Source of the DNA: Nitrospirales bacterium
GTDB taxonomy: Bacteria > Nitrospirota > Nitrospiria > Nitrospirales > UBA8639
DNA length: 37,532 nucleotides
Assembly: GCA_021604365.1 (NCBI GenBank)
Contig: BQIZ01000013.1
Location: 1 to 37,532 of the forward strand
Direction: 5' to 3'
The position numbers were made by a program, and so were the translations under genes. The notes under the pieces were generated by a model that made no database searches, was not told the origin of the DNA, and was given only the letters and a program-made list of their open reading frames with translations. This document shows, one piece after another, positions 2,632-27,345 of the stretch. Within the stretch, counting starts at the first letter, position 1. Every line of letters starts with the position of its first letter.

Positions 2632-3099
2632 ATGAATGTGAACACCTTGATGGGGCACGATGTCGAGAGTATCGATTTAAAGACAAAAAATCTTAATGGT
2701 CACCACCAAGGGTTTGCCCCTGGCCTCCCGGAAAGTGGTAGACGCATATTGGTTTTGGGTGTTGACCTTAAGACATGGACTGGGTTGAGCGACAGTCTGT
2801 GGGATTTAGGGTTTACGCTTAAAAGTCTTCCCTCTTCCTTGGACGAATTGGATCAACTGAAGGATACCATCCTCGATGGTATATTGTGGGACTTTGAATC
2901 GAGTTTCCTGAAGGGTTTAGCTGTCGTGTCTCAGCTTCGCGGAAGAACACCTGTCCTCCCAGTGATGGTTATCTCGAGGCCCTCAAACAAGCAGCTGCTG
3001 ATAAAGGCCATTGAAAATGGGGCGATGGATTTTATTATGAAACCCATAGACCACACAGAACTTCGAAACAATGTGTGCGGTTGTTTGGATAGAGGATGA
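2632..3099 (+). CDS. Degenerate response-regulator receiver protein
   Basis: A stand-alone receiver-like domain of 155 residues with no output domain. The core (residues 38-152) follows the CheY fold pattern: RILVLGVD, then ILWDFES carrying a possible phospho-acceptor Asp87, then VMVIS and FIMKPID with the conserved Lys137. The acidic pair normally found after the first strand is missing (LGVDLKT in place of xDDxxx), and Ser115 replaces the usual Ser/Thr region, so metal-dependent phosphorylation may be impaired. The first ~35 residues are unlike a receiver. The start at 2632 has only a weak GGAAAG ribosome site; the ATG at 2650 is possible. It probably acts as a binding partner in the same pathway as the next gene; this is inference. 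Confidence 0.75.
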   Translation: MNVNTLMGHDVESIDLKTKNLNGHHQGFAPGLPESGRRILVLGVDLKTWTGLSDSLWDLGFTLKSLPSSLDELDQLKDTILDGILWDFESSFLKGLAVVSQLRGRTPVLPVMVISRPSNKQLLIKAIENGAMDFIMKPIDHTELRNNVCGCLDRG

Positions 3100-3136
3100 G
3101 AACCATAAAGTAAGGCGATTTCAGGGAGGAACTATC

Positions 3137-3625
3137 ATGATACCTGTATGGGGTGACGACTCTCAGAAACTTTCACCGGAAAATCCATCTATTAGCGTAA
3201 AGTCGCAGGAGAAATTGGATGGGATAAATCCTGAATTTTTAAACCCTGTTTCTATTCTGGTTGTCGACGACAGCGTTGAATGTCGCATGATACTCCGCAT
3301 AGCAATAGAACGAGAGGGTTTTCGTTGCGTAGAAGCAGCAGATGGAGTAGCTGCGCTCAAGTTGTTTCAGGAAAAAACGGTTGATTTCATCATCACAGAT
3401 TTTGAAATGCCATATATGAATGGATGCGAATTTCTTGAAATATTATCGAGTGTGGCCATCAGTTGTCCTCCTGCGGTGATGATTACGGGGAACCTTGCGG
3501 ATTCTGTGCGAATCAGAGCGACGCACGCCGGGGCATTGGCCGTCCTCTCAAAGCCTTTTGAACAAAAGAGGATTCTGAAAATGGTTCGGGAAGTCGTGCA
3601 TCGGAAGGAGGAGGCCCTTCAATGA
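3137..3625 (+). CDS. Single-domain response regulator
   Basis: A 162-residue protein with a complete receiver domain (residues 38-158). It has the acidic pair in LVVDDSVE (Asp44/Asp45), the phospho-acceptor Asp88 in ITDFEMP, the Thr in VMITG, and the conserved Lys in LSKPFEQ. The first ~37 residues are a polar extension. There is no DNA-binding or enzymatic output domain, so it should work CheY-like or in a phosphorelay. The frame is open from 3071, but the ATG at 3137 follows a strong GGGAGGA ribosome site and removes the overlap with the previous gene. It is the third gene of the sigma-54-linked group. No cognate histidine kinase lies next to it. Confidence 0.85.
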   Translation: MIPVWGDDSQKLSPENPSISVKSQEKLDGINPEFLNPVSILVVDDSVECRMILRIAIEREGFRCVEAADGVAALKLFQEKTVDFIITDFEMPYMNGCEFLEILSSVAISCPPAVMITGNLADSVRIRATHAGALAVLSKPFEQKRILKMVREVVHRKEEALQ

Positions 3626-5241
3626 AAGGGTACCCATTTCATCCTGGAAAATGGGGTATAGGGGCCTTGATCCATTGCCATTGGGAATATGTGGAGTAAG
3701 GAGAACCGCATAATGACCTTTCTGGCCGAATAAACAACTCAATAAAAATGAAGTCTATGTAGTAAGTTCTGTCTGGGTTTCTCTCTTCTTAAAATCATTG
3801 CTCCCTCCTCTCCCACCCCCGTTGGCAATTTAAGTGGGAATGTATTCGCAATAAAAAGATATGGAGGTGAGGTGCGGCCGGAGAGGGGAAGGATGTGAGG
3901 CTCAGGAAATGGTTGCCTTCTCTGATCTCGGGGACTCGCACATGGTTGAAAATTCATATGAAACGAAAGAACAGGATTGTCTTTTTCCAAATTCCATGAA
4001 GGGTGTATTTGCCAGACCAAATTTATGTTCATCGCAATAGCTTTCGAGAATGCAACTCGTGGGTGCTTTGCATCGGATAGCTTGGAAGGGGACAATTGCC
4101 GTCGCCTCAGGGTTGTTTTGATCGACCGGGCAGAGAAACACCGAACCGGACAGGGAGATTGAGAGTGGGCCCGGCTCAGTGTAAAGACTAAAGACAATCC
4201 TTCTTTTTCTTGTCCGGCTGAGCGGTTTTCGCAAGAGTAGCACGTCAATTGTAAATAATGTGCCAGCGGGGGTGGTTGACCGATTGAGGCGCTGAGACTT
4301 CCAATTGATATCGGCAGATGAAATAATGACATATCTCGTGCACGAAGAGTCTAGTATTCCAAACATGCAAAATTGCGCTCCGTGTTTATGCCTCCCTAGA
4401 TATCGTGGGGGGACAGGCACAAAGAACACACCAATGACCTAAACTGCCTGAATTTTCCAAAGCACCGAACCTTCACGAATATTAATAGAGGAAAAGATTC
4501 CTCTAGTTCTGACTAGACTCAACCACTGTCCCAGAAAAATCTTTCGGTTCAACACCTCGAATCAAGTGGGTTTTGGGCTCGACTCTTCTGTTGCATTGTC
4601 GAGTCAAAACTACTGTAGAAACAACAAAGATCAATTGAAAAATGCCTCCAAGGAGTGTTGAATAATACTAATTTCCATGGGCATATTGACCCACAGGCAC
4701 GTGGCCGATCAGAGGCCTCGGGGCGGTTCAAAAAAGCATGCCCTGAGCCTTTCGAAGGGTTCGTTCAGCAAGGCCGCAGTCATTTTTGCGCGCAGAGCGT
4801 ACTTCCAGTACGTGAGCACGGAAAAATGGCGAGAACGCCGCTGGCGGCTTTTTTCAACTGCCCCCTCCAAGAACATTGAAACGCCTGGTCACTCCATCAT
4901 CTAGGTTAAGGTAGAATGGGTAATACGTTTTACAACAGGCTTTACCTAGTGGAGTTTTGGAGAGGGTTCATCATGAAATGGGTGACGGGTAACCCTGGGG
5001 AGTGAGAAGATCTCGATGGATACGGAGGTATAATGACAGGACATAGCCCATGTTCATGTGTTTGGATAATGAGAATGGGAAGAGCGGTGGTCCCGCATGA
5101 GATGGATTGGGCTGAAACCTTTGCAAAAGGTAGACTGGCCACATTCAGTGGTTTCATGCGAGAAATGCCCCAAACGCCCTAAAGCACCAAGTCAGGTATT
5201 TTGGGGACTTGTCTCATTTTTGAGTGCTACAGGAAGCAATC
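3626..5241 (+). other. Long gene-poor interval with a transposon-like repeat
   Basis: About 1.6 kb between the response regulator and the first EBP. Open frames up to 197 codons exist on the minus strand (3739-4332 and 3902-4429), but they overlap each other, lack ribosome sites and read as unstructured low-complexity residues, so I do not call them. The only clear element is the repeat at 4652-4864. Confidence 0.6.
4652..4864 (+). mobile_element. MITE-like repeat, copy 1 (213 bp)
   Basis: Starts GGAGTGTTGAATAATACTAA and ends TTTTTTCAACTGCCCC, giving imperfect terminal inverted repeats built around GTTGAA/TTCAAC. It is flanked on both sides by CTCCAA (4646-4651 and 4865-4870), a probable target-site duplication. 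Same family as 25951-26219 (same orientation) and 7240-7612 (inverted). It has no transposase frame. It includes an internal CCTTTCGAAGGG-like palindrome. Confidence 0.8.
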
Positions 5242-7164
5242 ATGGAAGACAAAGGGTTCTTATCATCTACCGATAGTCATTCATTGAAGAATTCCGACCA
5301 AGAATTGAAGCAAACCTTACACGATCTCCGGGAACGGGTGAAGGAACTGACCGCTCTTCATTCCACCACGCAATTGTTTCACAACGAAGACTTATCGACT
5401 CAGGAATTGCTTCAGCACATTGCTGATCTCATTCCGCCTTCCTGGCAATATTCTGAAGTCACAGCTGCCCGGATTCGTTTTGGACATCTGGAAATTACGA
5501 CGCCTCATTTTGTGTTATCCCCGTGGACTCAGCGGGAGGATTTTATTTGCCGGGATGGAACGACGGGTGAAATTGAGGTCGCGTATCTGGAGGAACGTCC
5601 GACGGAAGTTGAAGGCCCCTTCCTGCAAGAGGAGCGAAATTTATTGCACTCACTTGGAGAGATGGTCCGTCTGCAGTTGGATCGGAAGCGGACGCAAGCC
5701 GCTCTTCGTGAGGCGCATGATGTGCTTGAGCAGCGGGTGCTAGACAGAACATCCGAACTCACGACGGCCAATTTATTACTGTCGCGTGAAGTGGCACAAC
5801 GGAAAGAAGCTGAAGCGAAATTGGAGAAATTGATTGCGGAGATCCAGAGGAATCATGATGATCTCATTGCTATTTTGAATCAATTGCATATTGGAACTGC
5901 CTTGACCGACCAGGATGGAAAGGTGACCTTCCTGAGTCAGGCTGCACAACAGTTATGCGGAAAGGCGAATCTCCCTCATTCAGGCGAGCCGTGGCAAGCG
6001 TTGTTTGACGATCCCTCCTATCATGCTCAAATAGAGGACATGGTGAATCGGCCTACTGGAGAAAGGGAGAGAATCTTAGTGCGCATGCCCGCGGTTGGCG
6101 GAGAATGCACCCGTTGGATCAATGTGGATGTGAGGGATGATCCACGAGATCCGGAACGGAAAATGTTCTTCTTGTACGATGCTTCGGAGGTGCAAACCCT
6201 TCGGCAACTATTGGGAGAGACGGGGAAATTTCAGGATCTTATTGGCACCAGCCATTCCATGCAATTGGTCTTTCAGCAGATTCAGGATTTTTCCCGTGTA
6301 GATTCAACCATTCTTATTGAGGGGGAAACCGGGACAGGAAAGGAATTGGTCGCTCGTGCCATTCACCAAGCCAGCCACCGGAATACGTTTCCATTTATTG
6401 CGGTGAATTGTGCGGGGTTAACCGAATCACTGGTCGCCAGCCAATTATTTGGGCATAAGCGTGGGGCTTTTACAGGAGCGGTATCAGATCAACAGGGTTT
6501 GATCGAAGCCGCTGAAGGCGGAACCTTGTTTCTGGATGAGATTGGCGATATTCCCCTCACCGTCCAAACCAGTCTGCTTCGGGTTCTACAAGAATGGGAA
6601 ATTACCCGTCTTGGGGAGTCCCGGCTTCGGAAGGTGGATGTTCGTGTGCTTGCGGCCACACATCATAATCTTGCCAATGATGTCACTGCGGGGACTTTCC
6701 GGGCTGACCTGTTGTATCGGATCCGGGTCGGAAGAGTGTTGCTGCCAGCGCTACGGGAGCGACGGGAAGATATTCCATCATTAATCAGCCATTTTCTGAA
6801 TCAATATCGGGCGACAACAGGAAGGCCTGTTGAGGCCGTGAGTAATGAAGCTCTCCGGCTGTTGATGGCCTATGCATGGCCTGGAAACGTTCGCGAACTC
6901 AAACATGCGATTGAATTCGCCGTCATTCGATGTCCACAGACGATTATTCGACCTCAAGATTTACCGCCGGAGGTGTTTAATCAGGATGAAAGACTTCTCG
7001 TGATGCCTTCTGAAGAAAGGACTTCAATCCATGAGAAGGAGGAGATTCTCTCTGCATTGAAGCAGACGGGAGGGAACCGTTCAGCTGCCGCTAAGCTGCT
7101 TGGGATCGCCCGCCTCACTTTGTATCGTAGAATGTCACGCCTCGGAATTTCTGCTCGCCGTTAA
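5242..7164 (+). CDS. Sigma-54 enhancer-binding regulator (GAF-like/PAS/AAA+/Fis)
   Basis: A 640-residue sigma-54 activator. The N-terminal ~165 residues resemble a degenerate GAF or other sensory domain. A coiled coil follows (about 150-210: [26 protein letters not shown]), then a PAS domain (about 210-310: [21 protein letters not shown]). The AAA+ domain has Walker A GETGTGKE (about 361), the sigma-54 contact loop GAFTGA (about 408), Walker B LFLDEIGD and the arginine-rich [11 protein letters not shown] region. The C-terminus is a Fis helix-turn-helix ([22 protein letters not shown]). There is no receiver domain, so the signal enters through the PAS/GAF part. The ATG at 5242 follows AGGAAG; the upstream GTG at 5224 is less likely. 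It lies upstream of two sigma-54-type secreted-protein genes, separated from them by a transposon-like repeat, and is one of two local candidates to control them. Confidence 0.92.
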
Positions 7165-7813: not shown

Positions 7814-7864
7814 TGTAACTCAATGTAACTAGCTGTTACAGAAGTGCTTCAGAAGGATGTTACT
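7814..7864 (+). promoter_or_regulatory. TGTAAC half-site array (upstream activator sites), copy 1
   Basis: TGTAAC occurs at 7814 and 7824, and the reverse GTTACA at 7835 and GTTAC at 7859. The first two are one helical turn apart. The array begins 123 bp before the -24 element at 7937. Copy 2 at 9422-9472 shows the same offsets. Confidence 0.7.
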
Positions 7865-7936
7865 TTGTATCAAAAATTATTATTGATTTAATTATAAGTG
7901 TTTGTAGTTAAAAGAAAAGTAATGTTTTTGGCTTGA

Positions 7937-7952
7937 TGGCATATTAATTGGA
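7937..7952 (+). promoter_or_regulatory. Sigma-54-type promoter of the first small secreted protein
   Basis: TGGCATATTAATTGGA has the -24 GG and the TTG of the -12 box at correct spacing, but the final C of TTGC is G. It lies 85 bp before the ATG at 8037. It aligns with the element at 9545 upstream of the paralog (TGGCATATnAATTGnA). Confidence 0.6.
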
Positions 7953-8036
7953 TTGAAAGACAGTTGTGGGTAAAAAACATTGTTAATAATTAACTGCATA
8001 CGTTTTTCAGTATTACGGGTGTGGAAGGAGGAAATT

Positions 8037-8408
8037 ATGAATAAAACCATATTCATTCCATTTTTTCTGGTGGGGATGCTCCTATGCCTTCCGCAATTTG
8101 TCCTGGCTAGTGAGGGCAGTCAAGAACAGAATTCTTCCTGGAAACTTGAAATGCAAGGGTGGTCGATTCAGGAGCACATGGCTGCGGCAAAAGATAAAGA
8201 GGTTGAAGCCCAATCTCTACGGAGCCGTGTTCTCCATTTGGGGGAGCGCATAGCCCACTTTGAGAAAAAGCCATACTTCGATCCAAAGGGGATTCAGAGA
8301 AATTCCATGAATCTTATTGCCTCGACTTTGACGGGGGAATTGAATCGTTTAAATAAAGAGATTGCCTGGCATTTTCGGCAAGCCGACCATGCCAAGCTTA
8401 TAGAATAA
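8037..8408 (+). CDS. Small secreted coiled-coil protein, paralog 1
   Basis: A 123-residue protein with a clean Sec signal peptide (MNKTIFIPFFLVGMLLCLPQFVLAS, likely cut after VLA). The mature part is about 100 residues, rich in Lys/Glu/Gln and mostly helical: HMAAAKDKEVEAQSLRSRVLHLGERIAHFEKKPYFDPKGIQRNSMNLIASTLTGELNRLNKEIAWHFRQADHAKL. I do not recognise a named family. It is about two-thirds identical to the protein at 9649-10020, with the same length. The start follows AAGGAGGAAATT; the frame extends upstream to 7980 but that part is leader DNA. It has a TGTAAC array and sigma-54-type promoter upstream. An envelope or stress role is possible but not shown. Confidence 0.85.
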   Translation: MNKTIFIPFFLVGMLLCLPQFVLASEGSQEQNSSWKLEMQGWSIQEHMAAAKDKEVEAQSLRSRVLHLGERIAHFEKKPYFDPKGIQRNSMNLIASTLTGELNRLNKEIAWHFRQADHAKLIE

Positions 8409-9421
8409 TGGAAAATGCCTGTATGGGTAGGGAAATGAATGAGTATCTATTAGCGTTTCCAAGAATAAAGGAGGGCATGAAAGAGGATCCCTGTTGTGGG
8501 GATAGAGAGGGTATCCTGTTTCGGTTTTGGTTTTCTGCTTAACGAATTTGTCAGGTGTTTCTGCCCACCAGAGGCTGCTTGACCGCTAGGGTATACAATT
8601 TTTTTGATTGATAATGTTGGGAGCGTGGCATGAACGACGGCAGTTTGGGTTGATGAAGTTTTGACGGGTCTTTGGCGGCACAGGTTCCTCATCGTCCTTT
8701 TGAGAGTGGTGGGTCTGATGTCGGGCGTTACGCCAAAAGGTTCCTAACATTCTTCGAAGTAACTACCATCAGCCGCATTGTGCCTAATGGCTTTTTCCAG
8801 ATTTGTAGGCTTTGCCAATATTGGCTATCGAAAATTGACCCTCCGGGATCCACCTTAATAGGTTCAGACGTGAATTTCATGCTTGACGAATCAATCTAGT
8901 TTGACGAAATAAAACCGAGAAGCCCCAGAGTGATGGAGACTTTTGAAAGATCGGTCTGGCTAGAGGTATCTCCCGTTTGTGTCCAATCGGGCGCCCCAGT
9001 TGGTGAATGGTTTGCCAGAATATTGCCACTAGGACTTTAGAAAATCGACCCGCCGAACTAAAGCGTAATTTTAGTCTCGCTAGCTTTTGAGCCAACCTTT
9101 TTTATGGCGGAAGAAGCCGCCTTATACCCAGAGGTATTGGCCTATCCTCGCAAGAGTATGCTTGGCGAAGTCCTACTGTGCCCGTATGGGGCCGTCAAGC
9201 CCTAATCAGTATGGTCTAATGCCTTTTTGTTGGAAGAGCTTGGGTAAGTCGCCAGAGCGGAACCCAATGTTCTTCGCAGAAACGTCCTTCCCGAATGCCG
9301 ATCGTGGCTTGAAGGTTTCCAGGCTTGCTGGTCTTCATCTTCTATGGCAGGTTCCGGCTTACGTGAATAAGTATAAACACTGTAGAGTGCTAACAAGTAA
9401 GGTATCTGAGAAAGAAAAAAG
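8409..9421 (+). other. Gene-poor interval between the two secreted paralogs
   Basis: About 1 kb with no convincing gene. At 8461-8479 the sequence AAGAATAAAGGAGGG followed by ATG nearly repeats the leader of the gene at 9649, but its frame ends after 21 codons (8477-8542), suggesting a truncated extra paralog. Two similar stretches near 8833 (GAAAATTGACCCTCCGG) and 9040 (GAAAATCGACCCGCCG) may be decayed mobile-element ends. The 139-codon frame at 9087-9506 reads as non-protein. Confidence 0.5.
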
Positions 9422-9472
9422 TGTAACTATGTGTAACATATTGGAACGCTTTTGTTCCATTCATGCGTTACA
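9422..9472 (+). promoter_or_regulatory. TGTAAC half-site array (upstream activator sites), copy 2
   Basis: TGTAAC at 9422 and 9432 and the reverse GTTACA at 9467, that is offsets 0, +10 and +45, identical to copy 1. Between them is a GGAAC-N6-GTTCC inverted repeat (9443-9458) not present in copy 1. The array starts 123 bp before the -24 element at 9545, exactly as in copy 1. Confidence 0.7.
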
Positions 9473-9544
9473 TGTATTACATAATAATAATGTAAATAAA
9501 TATTAAGTTATTGATTATAAAATGAAATACTACATAAATATTGT

Positions 9545-9560
9545 TGGCATATGAATTGTA
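9545..9560 (+). promoter_or_regulatory. Sigma-54-type promoter of the second small secreted protein
   Basis: TGGCATATGAATTGTA matches the -24 box and TTG of the -12 box, with T in place of the final C. It lies 89 bp before the ATG at 9649. Confidence 0.6.
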
Positions 9561-9648: not shown

Positions 9649-10020
9649 ATGAATAAAAATATACTTTTTCCACTTTTCCTAATGGGGATGCTCTTCGGTC
9701 TTCCACAATTTGTCTTGGCAGCCGAGACCAGTCAAGAACAGAGTTCTGCCTGGAAATCTGAAACGCAGGGGTGGTCGATTCAAGATCATATGACTGCGGC
9801 CAAAGCTAAAGAAGGAGAAGTCCAGGATCTACAGAGCCGCGTTCAGCAACTGGAAGCGAGAATAACCCATTTTGAGAAAAAGCCACACTTCGATCCGAAA
9901 GGGATTCGGAGAAATTCCATGAAACTTATTGCCTCGACTTTGAAAGGGAATTCTGAAATTTTGAATGAGAGGATCGCCTGGCATTATAGGCAATCGGATC
10001 AAGCCAGTCTGAGGGAGTAG
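9649..10020 (+). CDS. Small secreted coiled-coil protein, paralog 2
   Basis: A 123-residue secreted protein, paralog of 8037-8408. The signal peptide MNKNILFPLFLMGMLFGLPQFVLAAE has a likely cut after VLA. The mature helical region includes a heptad-like stretch (AKAKEGEVQDLQSRVQQLEARITHFEKK) followed by the conserved block PHFDPKGIRRNSMKLIASTLKG and a C-terminal IAWHYRQSDQASLRE. The strongest conservation between paralogs is in FEKKPxFDPKGIxRNSM, so that is probably the functional core. The ribosome site AAGGAGGGGG is very strong. It is followed by two hairpins, the second a textbook terminator, so it is monocistronic. Function unknown. Confidence 0.87.
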   Translation: MNKNILFPLFLMGMLFGLPQFVLAAETSQEQSSAWKSETQGWSIQDHMTAAKAKEGEVQDLQSRVQQLEARITHFEKKPHFDPKGIRRNSMKLIASTLKGNSEILNERIAWHYRQSDQASLRE

Positions 10021-10176: not shown

Positions 10177-10848
10177 CTGCTAAGTATTTTTGACCGCCAT
10201 GGGTTGGTTTTTCTATCACGCCATGATGACCCGAAAGTGACCAAGTTGTTTTATTTGGCGAATGAGATCGGCAGAGAACTTTCCGCGATACCTACCAAAG
10301 CAATGCCTAAGAAAAGATGAATAGATAAGAGGACAGAGTTTTGATAGATCCATACGATAGATGGATGTGCGATTAAGCACGGTATACCAGTGCGTTTCCG
10401 CTCAATTTTTTGGTAAGAACATGAAGTTTTTTTAATAAAATTTCCTTAATTAGAACAAGTCATTAGACTAGCTGGATGATATAATAAGCGACCTGGTCTT
10501 GTGAGTTATTAAGCTATTGAAAAATAAAATAAATTGGACTTTAACTTTATCTCTGGATGGGCGACCACTACGACAAGGGGAATAGGTCTTGGTATGCCAC
10601 AATAAACGGTTGATGGCTTGGTAATTGCGGTCTCTTTTTGAGAAGTAATGAAGCTCTATAAATTTTTCCCATGACTGAATATTTCCTTTCAAGATTATTC
10701 GATGCTTCATTCTTAACAAAGGGTTATAAATAGTGATGGCTTTCTTGTTAGCCGACAGTATTTCAGGAAATATAACCGTGTTGAGAAAATTTACCGTAAG
10801 GTCATGATTCTTCGCCCTTATGCTTGAGAATGCGTGAAGGGATTAGTG
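10177..10848 (+). other. Interval without a recognisable gene
   Basis: About 670 bp, AT-rich in its middle part, between the terminator and the second EBP. The only long frame (10468-10719, minus) lacks a ribosome site and reads as a shadow. No promoter matching GG-N10-GC was seen in front of the EBP. Confidence 0.45.
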
Positions 10849-12396
10849 ATGAAATTTGAAATGACTCACCGAACGGATCAAGTTGGCCGGCACTTTTATC
10901 AAACCTTGCTGGAAGTTACGAATGTCTTAAATTCCCAGAGGAATACGGAAGATCTGTGGAAAGCCATTACGGGACACATTAAAAAGGTGATTTCGTGGGA
11001 GCGCGCGGGTATTACGTTGTATCATCATGATATCGATGCCTTTCGGTTTTACGCGGTAGAAACGAGTATGCCTGTGGTGAAGTTGAAATGTGATGCCATT
11101 ATTCCTCGAGAAGGAAGTGCCATGGGTTGGGTGTATGGTCACCGACGTCTTCACATACGTCCCCATTTACAACGAAACCCGGTATTTTTAGAGGACGCAT
11201 TTTATCAGGAAGAGGGTTTAGGCAGGATGATCAATATTCCCTTAATTGTCGGGGATAATTGTTTTGGGTCTCTGAATATCGGCAGCGTGGAATCGGGGGA
11301 ACCTGATCCGGAAAATGTCTTGTTTTTGCGACAAGTTGCCACCCAAATTGCCTTTGCCGTTGATCTTGTGCGGGCCTATGAAGAGATCAATCATCTGAAA
11401 GAACAACTCACTCGTGAAAATGCCTACCTTCTGGAAGAAATCAAAGTTAGCCATGATTTCGGAGCGATGGTCGGCAACAGTCAGAAATTCAAGAACGTCC
11501 TGGACCTGGCCCAGGCTGTTGCACCCACCACGACTTCGGTGCTCATCATGGGTGAAACGGGAACAGGAAAAGAACTGTTAGCGCGGTTGCTTCATGAGTT
11601 GAGCCCCAGAAAAGATAAACCCTTTGTTCGAGTCAATTGTGCGGCGTTACCTTCAGGGCTGGTAGAGAGCGAACTTTTCGGCCACGAAAAAGGCGCGTTT
11701 ACCGGTGCAGAAAATGGAAGGCCCGGCAAATTTGAATTAGCGCATAATGGCACCTTGTTCCTAGATGAAATCGGGGAAATGCCAATTGAAGCCCAGGCCA
11801 AACTCCTGAGGGTTTTGCAAGATGGGATTGTGGAACGAGTGGGCAGTATCGAGGGGAAGGATGTTGATGTGCGAATCATCGCCGCGACCAATAGCGATTT
11901 AAGCAAGGCGATTGCGGAGGGGCGTTTTCGTTCAGACTTATATTATCGATTGCATGTCTTTCCGATTGTCGTGCCTCCTCTCCGTGAACGTCTGCACGAT
12001 ATTCCCCTGCTGGTGCGACATTTTATGGAAAAAAATCGGCTGCAATTTCGACGAAATTGTCAGGATATCGATGATCAGTCAATGGAGTTGCTCATTCAGT
12101 ATCCATGGCCGGGGAATGTACGGGAACTCAAAAACGTGATTGAACGAGCGATGATTCTTTCCCAATCGTCGCTCGTGCATGTGGAAGAATCATTGTTGCC
12201 CTCACCGGGACATGGCATGGATGCCCTGCCGCCTACTCAATTGAAAGACGTGGAGCGCACCCGGATTCTACAAGCCTTAACGGCTTGTGAATGGCGGATA
12301 GACGGTCCATTAGGGGCGGCCAAACACCTGGGATTGCATCCCAGTACACTGAGAAGTCGATTGAAAAAATTCGGAATCAAAAGACAATCTGAATAA
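10849..12396 (+). CDS. Sigma-54 enhancer-binding regulator (GAF/AAA+/Fis), FhlA-like
   Basis: A 515-residue activator. An N-terminal GAF domain (about 12-175: [28 protein letters not shown] ... [22 protein letters not shown]) should bind a small ligand or sense redox/gas. A short coiled linker ([22 protein letters not shown]) leads to the AAA+ core: Walker A GETGTGKE (about 234), GAFTGA loop (about 282) and Walker [10 protein letters not shown] Fis helix-turn-helix ends the protein ([25 protein letters not shown]). The layout matches FhlA-family regulators. The ATG at 10849 is preceded by AAGGG; a GTG at 10834 is also open. It is a close paralog of 13517-15052 and the nearest downstream EBP to the two secreted-protein genes. 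Confidence 0.93.
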
Positions 12397-12588: not shown

Positions 12589-13329
12589 TTAATAGCCCAC
12601 AAATTCTTCAGAGCGAATATTGGTCTTTTGAATGCCTGCAGACTCCAGCATCTTTCGTAATCCATTAACCATTGCAGGGGGCCCTACAACATAATACAGA
12701 GCCTTCTCCGTTTCTTTGACATATTTTTTGAACAAGACTTGGTCTATCCGGCCGGTTTCCCCTTCCCAGATTTCGGTGCCTCCGTTCGGGCTTGTCATTG
12801 TTCCAATACATGTAAAATGCTCATTTTTCTTTTTGAGGGTTTGCAGTTCACCAAGGAAAGCCGCATCTTTCGGATGCCGATTCGAATATAAGAGAATGAG
12901 TCGATGTGAAAGTTTGTGGTGGGTTGCTTCAACCAGCATGCTTCGGAAAGGTATAATCCTGATTCCTCCCGCGAGAAAGACAATCGTTCGGGAATCGTCG
13001 GTGGGCAGAATGAATTGTCCGAATGGACCTTCAAAATCAATTGAAGCCCCAATAGGCATATCTGTCAACGTGCGTTTAAAGGCGGTGTCCCGAAGTCGTG
13101 TGGCGACCATGAGCTGTTGTTCGGAAGGAGAGCCGGCCAGGGTAAAAGCTCGTGTATGGCCCTCTGGATCGGCTTTTGAAAGATTCGGTAATGACAGATC
13201 GATAAACTGACCTGCTGTGAATGTGAATCCAGGCGGCCGGTCAAAATAGAATGCCATTGTTCCTGTAGCGATGGCCTGACCTTTCTTCAATGCCACGTGA
13301 TTTAAAGAAGGCTTGGTGAGTTGTTTCAT
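12589..13329 (-). CDS. FNR-type flavin oxidoreductase with altered NAD motif
   Basis: A 246-residue ferredoxin-reductase-type protein. The FAD half (residues 1-105) has AGQFIDLSL and the flavin motif RAFTLAGSPSE. The NAD(P) half begins VFLAGGIRIIPFRSM and ends VGPPAMVNGLRKML and EEFVGY. Its paralog at 19313-20086 has the normal GGIGITPFRSM; here Gly is Arg and Thr is Ile, which should weaken dinucleotide binding. There is no iron-sulfur domain, so the electron partner is separate. The ATG follows CTGGGAGC. A minus-strand sigma-54 promoter lies 40 bp upstream, and the gene is divergent from the EBP at 13517, the obvious candidate regulator. Confidence 0.88.
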   Translation of the reverse strand: MKQLTKPSLNHVALKKGQAIATGTMAFYFDRPPGFTFTAGQFIDLSLPNLSKADPEGHTRAFTLAGSPSEQQLMVATRLRDTAFKRTLTDMPIGASIDFEGPFGQFILPTDDSRTIVFLAGGIRIIPFRSMLVEATHHKLSHRLILLYSNRHPKDAAFLGELQTLKKKNEHFTCIGTMTSPNGGTEIWEGETGRIDQVLFKKYVKETEKALYYVVGPPAMVNGLRKMLESAGIQKTNIRSEEFVGY

Positions 13330-13516: not shown

Positions 13517-15052
13517 GTGGAACGAATTGAGAGAAATTACCGGGCACTACTGAATGTCGCGATTGTGCTCAATTCTCAACGGGATACCAGTAGTCTCTGG
13601 CAAGCGATTATCGAGCAAATTGAACAGGTCATGCCTTGGGCACGGGCGAGTGTGACCTTATATGATCGTAAATCGGATGGGTTCCAGTTTTATGTTGTGA
13701 CGACTCATTTGGCCAGGGTCGTGGTTCAGGGTGATACGGTGATACCGCGTGTTGGGAGTGGAATGGGGTGGGTGTACGATCACAAAACGTTACATGTCCG
13801 TCCTGACCTTAACCAGCAACAGGTTTTTCTCGAGGACCGCTGGTATGTGGAGGAAGGGCTTGGACGCATGATTAACCTTCCGCTGTTGGTTAGAGGGAAG
13901 TGTGTGGGGGTCTTGAATCTTGGGAGCGTTGATGCGGGTGAGCCAGACCCAGATGCGATTGAGTTCTTATCACAAGTGGCCATGCAAATTGCCTATGCGA
14001 TTGATCATGTTCAGGCCTATGAGGAAATTAATCTGCTGCGTCAGCAGTTGGCACGAGAAAACATCTATCTGGTCGAGGAACTCAAACTGACAAAACATTT
14101 CGGGGCCATGGTCGGACGGAGTCAGGTTTTTCAGCATGTATTGGAACTTGCCCGCGAGGTCGCTCCTACGCCGGCGACGGTCCTGATCACGGGGGAGACG
14201 GGAACCGGAAAAGAACTCCTCGCCCAAGCCATTCATGATTGGAGCACGCGTTCGAACAAACCCTTCATTAGGGTCAATTGTGCGGCCCTCCCGGCAGGAT
14301 TAGTCGAAAGCGAATTATTTGGTCACGAAAAAGGAGCATTTACCGGAGCCGACTCGAGGCGTGAGGGGCGTTTTGAGTTAGCCCATGGCGGGACCTTGTT
14401 GTTAGACGAAATCGGGGAAGTTCCTTTGGAGACCCAGGCGAAATTATTGCGAGTGATTCAGGACGGGATGGTTGATCGTGTAGGGGGCAAACAGTCTATC
14501 CCGGTGGATATTCGGTTGATGGCCTCGACCAATGCCGATCTGCCATCAGCCATTGAACAAGGTCGTTTTCGTGCTGACCTTTTTTATCGACTTCATGTGT
14601 TTCCGATTACCATTCCTCCCCTCCGTGCCCGGCCGGAAGATATTCCGGAACTCGCACAGCATTTTCTGGAGTACTATGCTATGAAACTCAAGCGGCCCTG
14701 CGAAACGATTGAACCGGATTCTCTGCAGCGGCTTATCCGTTATTCCTGGCCGGGCAATATTCGAGAATTGGAAAATGTGATTGAACGGGCGGTGATTCTC
14801 TCCCACCAAAAGGTTCTGCGCATTGATGAACGGCTTTTGATTCTTCAGAATGCGACGCAGGAATCCAGAGCCCCGGCTGGGTTAGTCGATTTTGAACGGC
14901 AACATATTCTTCAGACCCTGGCCGCCTGCAATTGGCAGATCGAGGGGGAGAACGGAGCAGCGGAAAAACTCGGATTGGCACCGAGCACGCTCAGGAGCCG
15001 GATCAGAAAATTAGGTCTTCAACGACCGAGGAGCTCAACCTCTCCAAAATAG
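13517..15052 (+). CDS. Sigma-54 enhancer-binding regulator (GAF/AAA+/Fis), FhlA-like
   Basis: A 511-residue activator closely related to 10849-12396. The GAF domain covers about residues 8-165 ([22 protein letters not shown] ... [22 protein letters not shown]). The AAA+ core has Walker A GETGTGKE (about 225), GAFTGA (about 272) and LLLDEIGE Walker B. The Fis helix-turn-helix is at the end ([25 protein letters not shown]). The GTG start at 13517 follows GAAGGACC; no better in-frame start exists nearby. It sits between two sigma-54 promoters: the divergent one at 13369-13384 and the downstream one at 15238-15253. This is a typical arrangement for a local activator and its targets. Its 3' end is duplicated twice further on (27096-27345 and 30632-30765). 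Confidence 0.93.
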
Positions 15053-27095: not shown

Positions 27096-27345
27096 CGGTG
27101 GTTCTCACACATTAAAAAGGTTTGTGGGTCGATGAACGGCCCTTGGTTCCCCACAGCACGGCGCTTGCAGACAAGCCTCTGTCTGGATTAATCGATTTTG
27201 AATGGCAACATATTCTCCTAGTCTCTGCCTCCAGCAATTGAAAAATTGCAGGAGTGAGGGGAGCAGCAGAGCAGATCGAATCGGCCTCAAGCACGCTCTG
27301 GAACCGAATCAAAAGAGTTAGGCCTTCAATGGCCGAACAGGTCAA
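27096..27345 (+). pseudogene. Decayed EBP 3' end (Fis domain), copy B
   Basis: Nucleotide-level match to 14790-15050 of the EBP gene: for example GTCGATTTTGAACGGCAACATATTC there appears as AATCGATTTTGAATGGCAACATATTC here, and the Fis helix region and the shared AGCACGCTC stretch follow. The frame is broken by substitutions and small gaps, and nothing of the AAA+ domain is present. It is the left end of a segmental duplication that continues through the hairpin, sigma-54 promoter and both cassette genes. Confidence 0.8.

Follow-up and report, generated by a model that had tools for sequence, protein, structure and literature searches.

How is a pair of genes for small, apparently secreted proteins controlled when it lies among activator genes on a Nitrospirales contig, and by which of these neighbours? 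The window, i.e., the whole stretch of 37,532 nucleotides analysed here, encodes three activators of the EBP type close to the pair, in the following setting:

2632-3625, forward strand: a pair of receiver-only response regulators, 5' of EBP1
5224-7164, forward strand: EBP1, with a predicted GAF-like/coiled-coil/PAS sensor region, an AAA+ domain with GAFTGA and a Fis-type HTH
8037-8408, forward strand: SP_a, a 123-amino-acid protein with an apparent signal peptide
9649-10020, forward strand: SP_b, a paralogue 67% identical to SP_a, with an apparent signal peptide and a predicted helical hairpin
10834-12396, forward strand: EBP2, a GAF-AAA+-Fis activator
12589-13329, reverse strand: NAD/FAD-binding oxidoreductase gene, on the opposite strand between EBP2 and EBP3
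13517-15052, forward strand: EBP3, a GAF-AAA+-Fis activator lying downstream in the window

The original prediction correctly placed EBP1 and EBP2 on either side of the pair, and missed EBP3. The order EBP1-SP_a-SP_b-EBP2-oxidoreductase-EBP3 is conserved in the genus as far as the contigs reach. The oxidoreductase gene is kept between EBP2 and EBP3 in the genus; in G028, a genome of another genus, none was seen between these two. Conservation of the receiver-only proteins is uneven among relatives. SP orthologues were traced across 60 relatives, close SP genes being present in G028 and in nine genus genomes, the source genome among them. They form a pair in eight of these nine (one pair being split across two contigs) and in G028, and G020 has one gene. 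We infer that each SP gene probably has its own sigma-54 promoter, at which transcription would start, with an upstream enhancer that EBP1 would bind and with looping assisted by IHF.

The putative enhancer is an array of short sites upstream of each gene:

7814-7872, forward strand: array of gene a, with TGTAACT at 7814, TGTAACT at 7824, TGTTACA at 7834, TGCTTCA at 7845, TGTTACT at 7858 and TGTATCA at 7866
9422-9481, forward strand: array of gene b, with TGTAACT at 9422, TGTAACA at 9432, TGGAACG at 9442, TGTTCCA at 9453, CGTTACA at 9466 and TATTACA at 9475

As had been claimed, TGTAAC is found at 7814 and 7824 with GTTAC at 7859 (+45) before gene a, and at 9422 and 9432 with GTTAC at 9467 (+45) before gene b. 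These sites are real, but their list was incomplete, as GTTACA at 7835 and the degenerate sites in between were not mentioned. Similarly, the equal distance of 123 bp to the -24 element is correct, TGG being read directly at 7937 and 9545, but its exactness is partly luck, since the first site lies at -122 to -126 across the genus orthologues. The motif TGTAACN4TGTAAC has exactly two matches in the 4.02 Mb genome, both in these promoters and 123 bp before the -24 TGG, and its reversed control has none in the same 4.02 Mb. The full array consists of degenerate TGTWACA sites at offsets 0, 10, 20, 31, 44 and usually 52, that is at about -123, -113, -103, -92, -79 and -71 relative to TGG, the sixth site missing in five genus promoters (four of the a-type and the b promoter of G010). 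Scoring of this lattice, in which degenerate forms of the 7-mer are allowed, gave 36 for gene a (shuffles 24.3 ± 1.6) and 36 for gene b (shuffles 24.5 ± 1.6).

Orthologous upstream regions were examined for the sites, as originally suggested, and the array was present in 19 of 19 promoters (17 from the nine genus genomes and two from another genus), at the same distance to a GG-N9-TG promoter, a result that supports the proposed reading as an enhancer-bound EBP acting on a sigma-54 promoter. GTWAC cores number 63 in the 17 genus promoters, where 1000 shuffles gave 7.0 ± 2.6 (maximum 17). This control counts each promoter as independent although the genomes are related, an objection that is answered by the promoters of other genera and by the comparison of a with b. 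The mean lattice score reaches 35.6, compared to 27.4 ± 1.7 (maximum 33.9) for random spacings on the same DNA. Two EBP1-linked promoters that were left out when the lattice was defined, those of G032 (another genus) and of G009 (a genus member whose EBP1 and SP are divergent), fit it with p<0.001, and the more divergent EBP1-linked promoters of G024 and G034 match it weakly (p about 0.01-0.02). The array goes well beyond chance and is real and strongly conserved.

Its positions are better kept than its surroundings. Aligned without gaps, the a and b promoters of the window are identical at 28 of 42 site columns, at 33 of 81 columns elsewhere in the 123 bp and at 14 of 16 columns of the -24/-12 element. 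Over the paralogous promoters, identity is 68% in site columns, 41% between sites, 49% in the spacer and 81% in the -24/-12 element, which bears out the claim that the DNA between sites had diverged strongly under maintained sites and spacing. Moreover, five genomes have the strict sites of their a-type promoter in reversed orientation at unchanged positions. As site columns outlast the between-site and spacer columns, position is kept while neighbouring DNA, and often orientation, turns over. A shared layout might also be a mere leftover of a recent tandem duplication, with unselected sites, given that SP_a and SP_b are paralogues (67% identical) and that both copies of G028 group together (support 87/84). 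This is hardly credible, however, because in the window pair the between-site DNA is down to the background level (15% identity) while sites are 74% identical, because orientations turned over at fixed positions, and because another genus shows the layout again, where a single SP gene stands beside EBP1.

Downstream of the arrays, each gene presents the two further elements of the predicted promoter:

7895-7907, forward strand: IHF-like element of gene a, TAAGTGTTTGTAG, matching weakly at the conserved position -42
7937-7952, forward strand: sigma-54-type -24/-12 element of gene a, TGGCATATTAATTGGA
9504-9516, forward strand: IHF-like site of gene b, TAAGTTATTGATT, matching 9/9 positions of YAAN4TTGATW (the reverse strand of WATCAAN4TTR)
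9545-9560, forward strand: sigma-54-type -24/-12 element of gene b, TGGCATATGAATTGTA

The GG at -24 and the TG of -12 are invariant in 22 of 22 promoters. Within the GC of the -12 element, G is in place in all 22, whereas C is found in 1 of 22 (G in 14, T in 4, A in 3), so that TTGG or TTGT replaces the consensus TTGC. Characterised sigma-54 promoters are known to show one-base departures in GG or GC (PMC7910581), and with this precedent the elements are filed as sigma-54-like rather than as consensus promoters. RpoN is encoded in a single copy (one match to TIGR02395, 436.8 bits, cut-off 277.35).

In both window promoters, the first two sites form a direct repeat, which is unusual for a Fis-type dimer, although TGTWACA is nearly its own reverse complement. 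Direct repeats of 10 bp are typical of winged-helix response regulators, and TGTAAC-N4-TGTAAC is such a repeat; together with the poorly conserved C at -12, this could point to another kind of binder, either an OmpR/PhoB-type regulator or a repressor, at a promoter that is perhaps not of the sigma-54 class. We regard this as improbable, since GG and TG are invariant at the sigma-54 spacing, their distance to the array is fixed, the array mixes sites of both orientations and the linked regulators are EBPs, while a DNA-binding domain was sought in the linked receiver-only proteins (2632-3625) and none was recognised.

The order of putative enhancer and sigma-54-type promoter had been correctly described, but the IHF-like element between them was missed. 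This element (TAA-N4-TTGAAT) lies between array and promoter at about -41. Of the 22 promoters, 20 show the pattern T-N-A-N4-TTG between -39 and -42, compared to 3.4 in shuffles, and its T.A....TTG columns are invariant between array and promoter in a MAFFT alignment. The reversed IHF core WATCAAN4TTR, an AT-rich and degenerate consensus, is matched at 9/9 positions in two promoters and at 8/9 in most. Both IHF subunits, alpha and beta, are encoded according to NF001401 (120.6 bits, cut-off 111) and NF001222 (123.1 bits, cut-off 115), whereas two TIGR models for IHF subunits score below their own cut-offs.

The array, its spacing and conservation, the IHF-like element, the RpoN and IHF genes, and the linkage and co-occurrence of EBP1 were all computed, and they suggest the following course of activation by EBP1. 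On receiving an inducing signal, EBP1 dimers would occupy neighbouring TGTWACA half-sites, which are near-palindromic and follow each other at roughly one helical turn. As five or six of them face almost the same side of the DNA, up to three dimers could be held and the AAA+ hexamer would assemble on this template; a spacing of 8-11 bp within half-site pairs fits dimers and three such pairs fit one hexamer, an argument already made for GcsR and NorR. IHF at about -41 would bend the DNA between array and promoter, so that the hexamer may reach the RNA polymerase-sigma-54 complex at -24/-12 and open it by ATP hydrolysis. In the textbook layout, the enhancer similarly lies 100-150 bp upstream and looping is helped by IHF (PMC7057263).

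Which EBP would bind the array is best approached through gene neighbourhoods. EBP1 is a sigma-54 activator by its Pfam domains (Sigma54_activat 5.6e-66, HTH_8 4.2e-12), its HTH is almost unchanged across genera, and its sensor region gives a structure model with pLDDT 72 and pTM 0.39. In all linked loci, spread over four genera, the SP gene(s) come immediately after it: beyond the genus it stays directly 5' of SP in G028, G024, G034 and G032, and G009 has a divergent copy in this place. EBP1 is present in each of the nine genus genomes that have both close SP genes and the array, and among the remaining genus genomes a close EBP1 is found in G018 only, where the contig is cut at the locus, with divergent forms in G009 and G013.

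The same sigma-54 architecture might instead be served by EBP2 or EBP3. Wherever a genus member has the pair on one contig, EBP2 comes directly 3' of SP_b, and no array-bearing genome lacks it, so that co-occurrence alone does not exclude it; EBP3 adjoins SP in G034. On the contrary, in G028, G032, G009 and G024, EBP2 is distant from SP or on another contig while EBP1 stays beside it, and G004 and G005 have EBP2 without array or EBP1. The EBP2 loci away from SP were inspected and carry no such array. Binding by EBP2 or EBP3 thus seems unlikely. Linkage and co-occurrence favour EBP1 over EBP2 as the candidate activator, which falls short of proof as EBP2 co-occurs too; of the two flanking EBPs originally put forward, the upstream one is therefore favoured by linkage, the downstream one being unlinked in other genera. 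Elsewhere in the window (27182-27319, forward strand), a remnant broken by a stop resembles the HTH of EBP3 (SGLIDFEWQHILLVSASSN*KIAGVRGAAEQ...) and is probably a decayed EBP copy.

The targets of EBP1 may be restricted to the pair. A profile of the promoter searched against the 60 genomes gave strong matches to SP promoters only and recovered the unseen SP promoter of G032 at 6e-7. Weak matches in G021 (4.7e-4) and G027 (9e-4) were rejected on reading, as they have neither an array nor an SP-like gene. Over about 120 loci, at least three strict sites are clustered only before SP genes, with the exception of one locus that had been retrieved by the motif itself. No array precedes the distant SP paralogues on contigs 34 and 46 of the source genome, and a search with the consensus -24/-12 pattern for further such promoters met no array in the further readable loci. 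Hence the circuit looks private to the SP pair. The SP family itself has no match in Pfam, NCBIfam or PHROG; SP_b is modelled as a helical hairpin with a mean pLDDT of 84, and a fold search of the model against the PDB gave nothing below E 0.001, the matches being generic helical hairpins only.

Among known systems, CbrB is the nearest in layout, judging from its sigma-N promoters in Pseudomonas putida (crcZ, crcY and PP2810; PMC6296734). There too, GTWAC-core subsites (TGTTAC/GTAACA) of either orientation share one helix face and precede a sigma-54 promoter, an IHF site stands between subsites and promoter, and spacing is preserved above sequence (PMC6296734). However, CbrB promoters have three subsites 20-25 bp apart instead of five or six 8-13 bp apart, and CbrB is a two-component response regulator with a large regulon, whereas EBP1 has a GAF/PAS-type sensor region and a regulon of seemingly two genes. 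Upstream of gcs2 in Pseudomonas aeruginosa, GcsR has three tandem 18-bp sites (TGTAACG-N4-CGTTCCG), i.e., six half-sites for three dimers (PMC4894688). Sites 3 and 4 of promoter b (TGGAACG-N4-TGTTCCA) share this 18-bp geometry, but the lattice described here is tighter and mixes direct with inverted half-sites, and GcsR is a TyrR-like regulator of glycine cleavage while EBP1 is not TyrR-like. In E. coli, three enhancer sites at norVW scaffold a functional NorR hexamer at a sigma-54 promoter (PMC2941729). Such a scaffold is the mechanism proposed here for EBP1. Motif and sensor differ, NorR sites being of the GTCA-N3-TGAC type and NorR sensing NO via its GAF domain. All three EBPs score well below the cut-offs of the TyrR model PRK10820 (233-239 bits, far under 576) and of the NorR equivalog NF003451 (EBP1 312, EBP2 367 and EBP3 357 bits, cut-off 476), and membership in those systems is therefore not claimed. 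At NifA promoters, the enhancer is likewise followed by an IHF site and then by the sigma-54 promoter, but the sites have the TGT-N10-ACA spacing and the genes are those of nitrogen fixation.

The putative sigma-54 enhancer is thus ordinary in kind, its architecture being known from CbrB, GcsR and NorR, and what appears notable from sequence comparison is the clean lattice and the private target. A literature search on sigma-54 regulation in Nitrospira returned nothing specific, nor a sigma-54 enhancer described for the lineage, and the locus provides a strongly supported EBP operator prediction with a named candidate regulator and target pair in Nitrospirales, relatives of nitrite oxidisers, and gives an uncharacterised family of secreted proteins a candidate sensor. 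In its fullest form, the proposal would be a private one-component Nitrospirales circuit, where nothing but a lineage-specific pair of secreted helical hairpins is under the control of a cytoplasmic GAF/PAS-type EBP, via a rigid, hexamer-templating half-site lattice whose position, rather than sequence or orientation, is kept by evolution; we advance it tentatively, as more doubtful than the promoter reading. The persistence of the lattice while sequence and orientation turn over offers a natural test of how far half-site geometry by itself dictates the assembly of EBP hexamers.

Other sigma-54-like elements were met among the genomes compared. When the -12 habit of these genomes was surveyed, the TTGG-type pattern had 13 matches against 5 in the control and the TTGC-type 2 against 1, these counts being small. 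An element with TTGG at -12, TTGGCAYGYAATTTGGA, is found in four genus genomes (L175, L176, L181 and L177), some 77 bp ahead of where a conserved gene starts; this gene has a CxxCH motif (CAFCH/CAYCH). In two genomes (L168 and L169), TTGGCATTNRATTTGCT precedes an exported-looking protein (QETDI...NTPDSSLYIISRDPFRSIRRGRN) and is a candidate consensus sigma-54 promoter.
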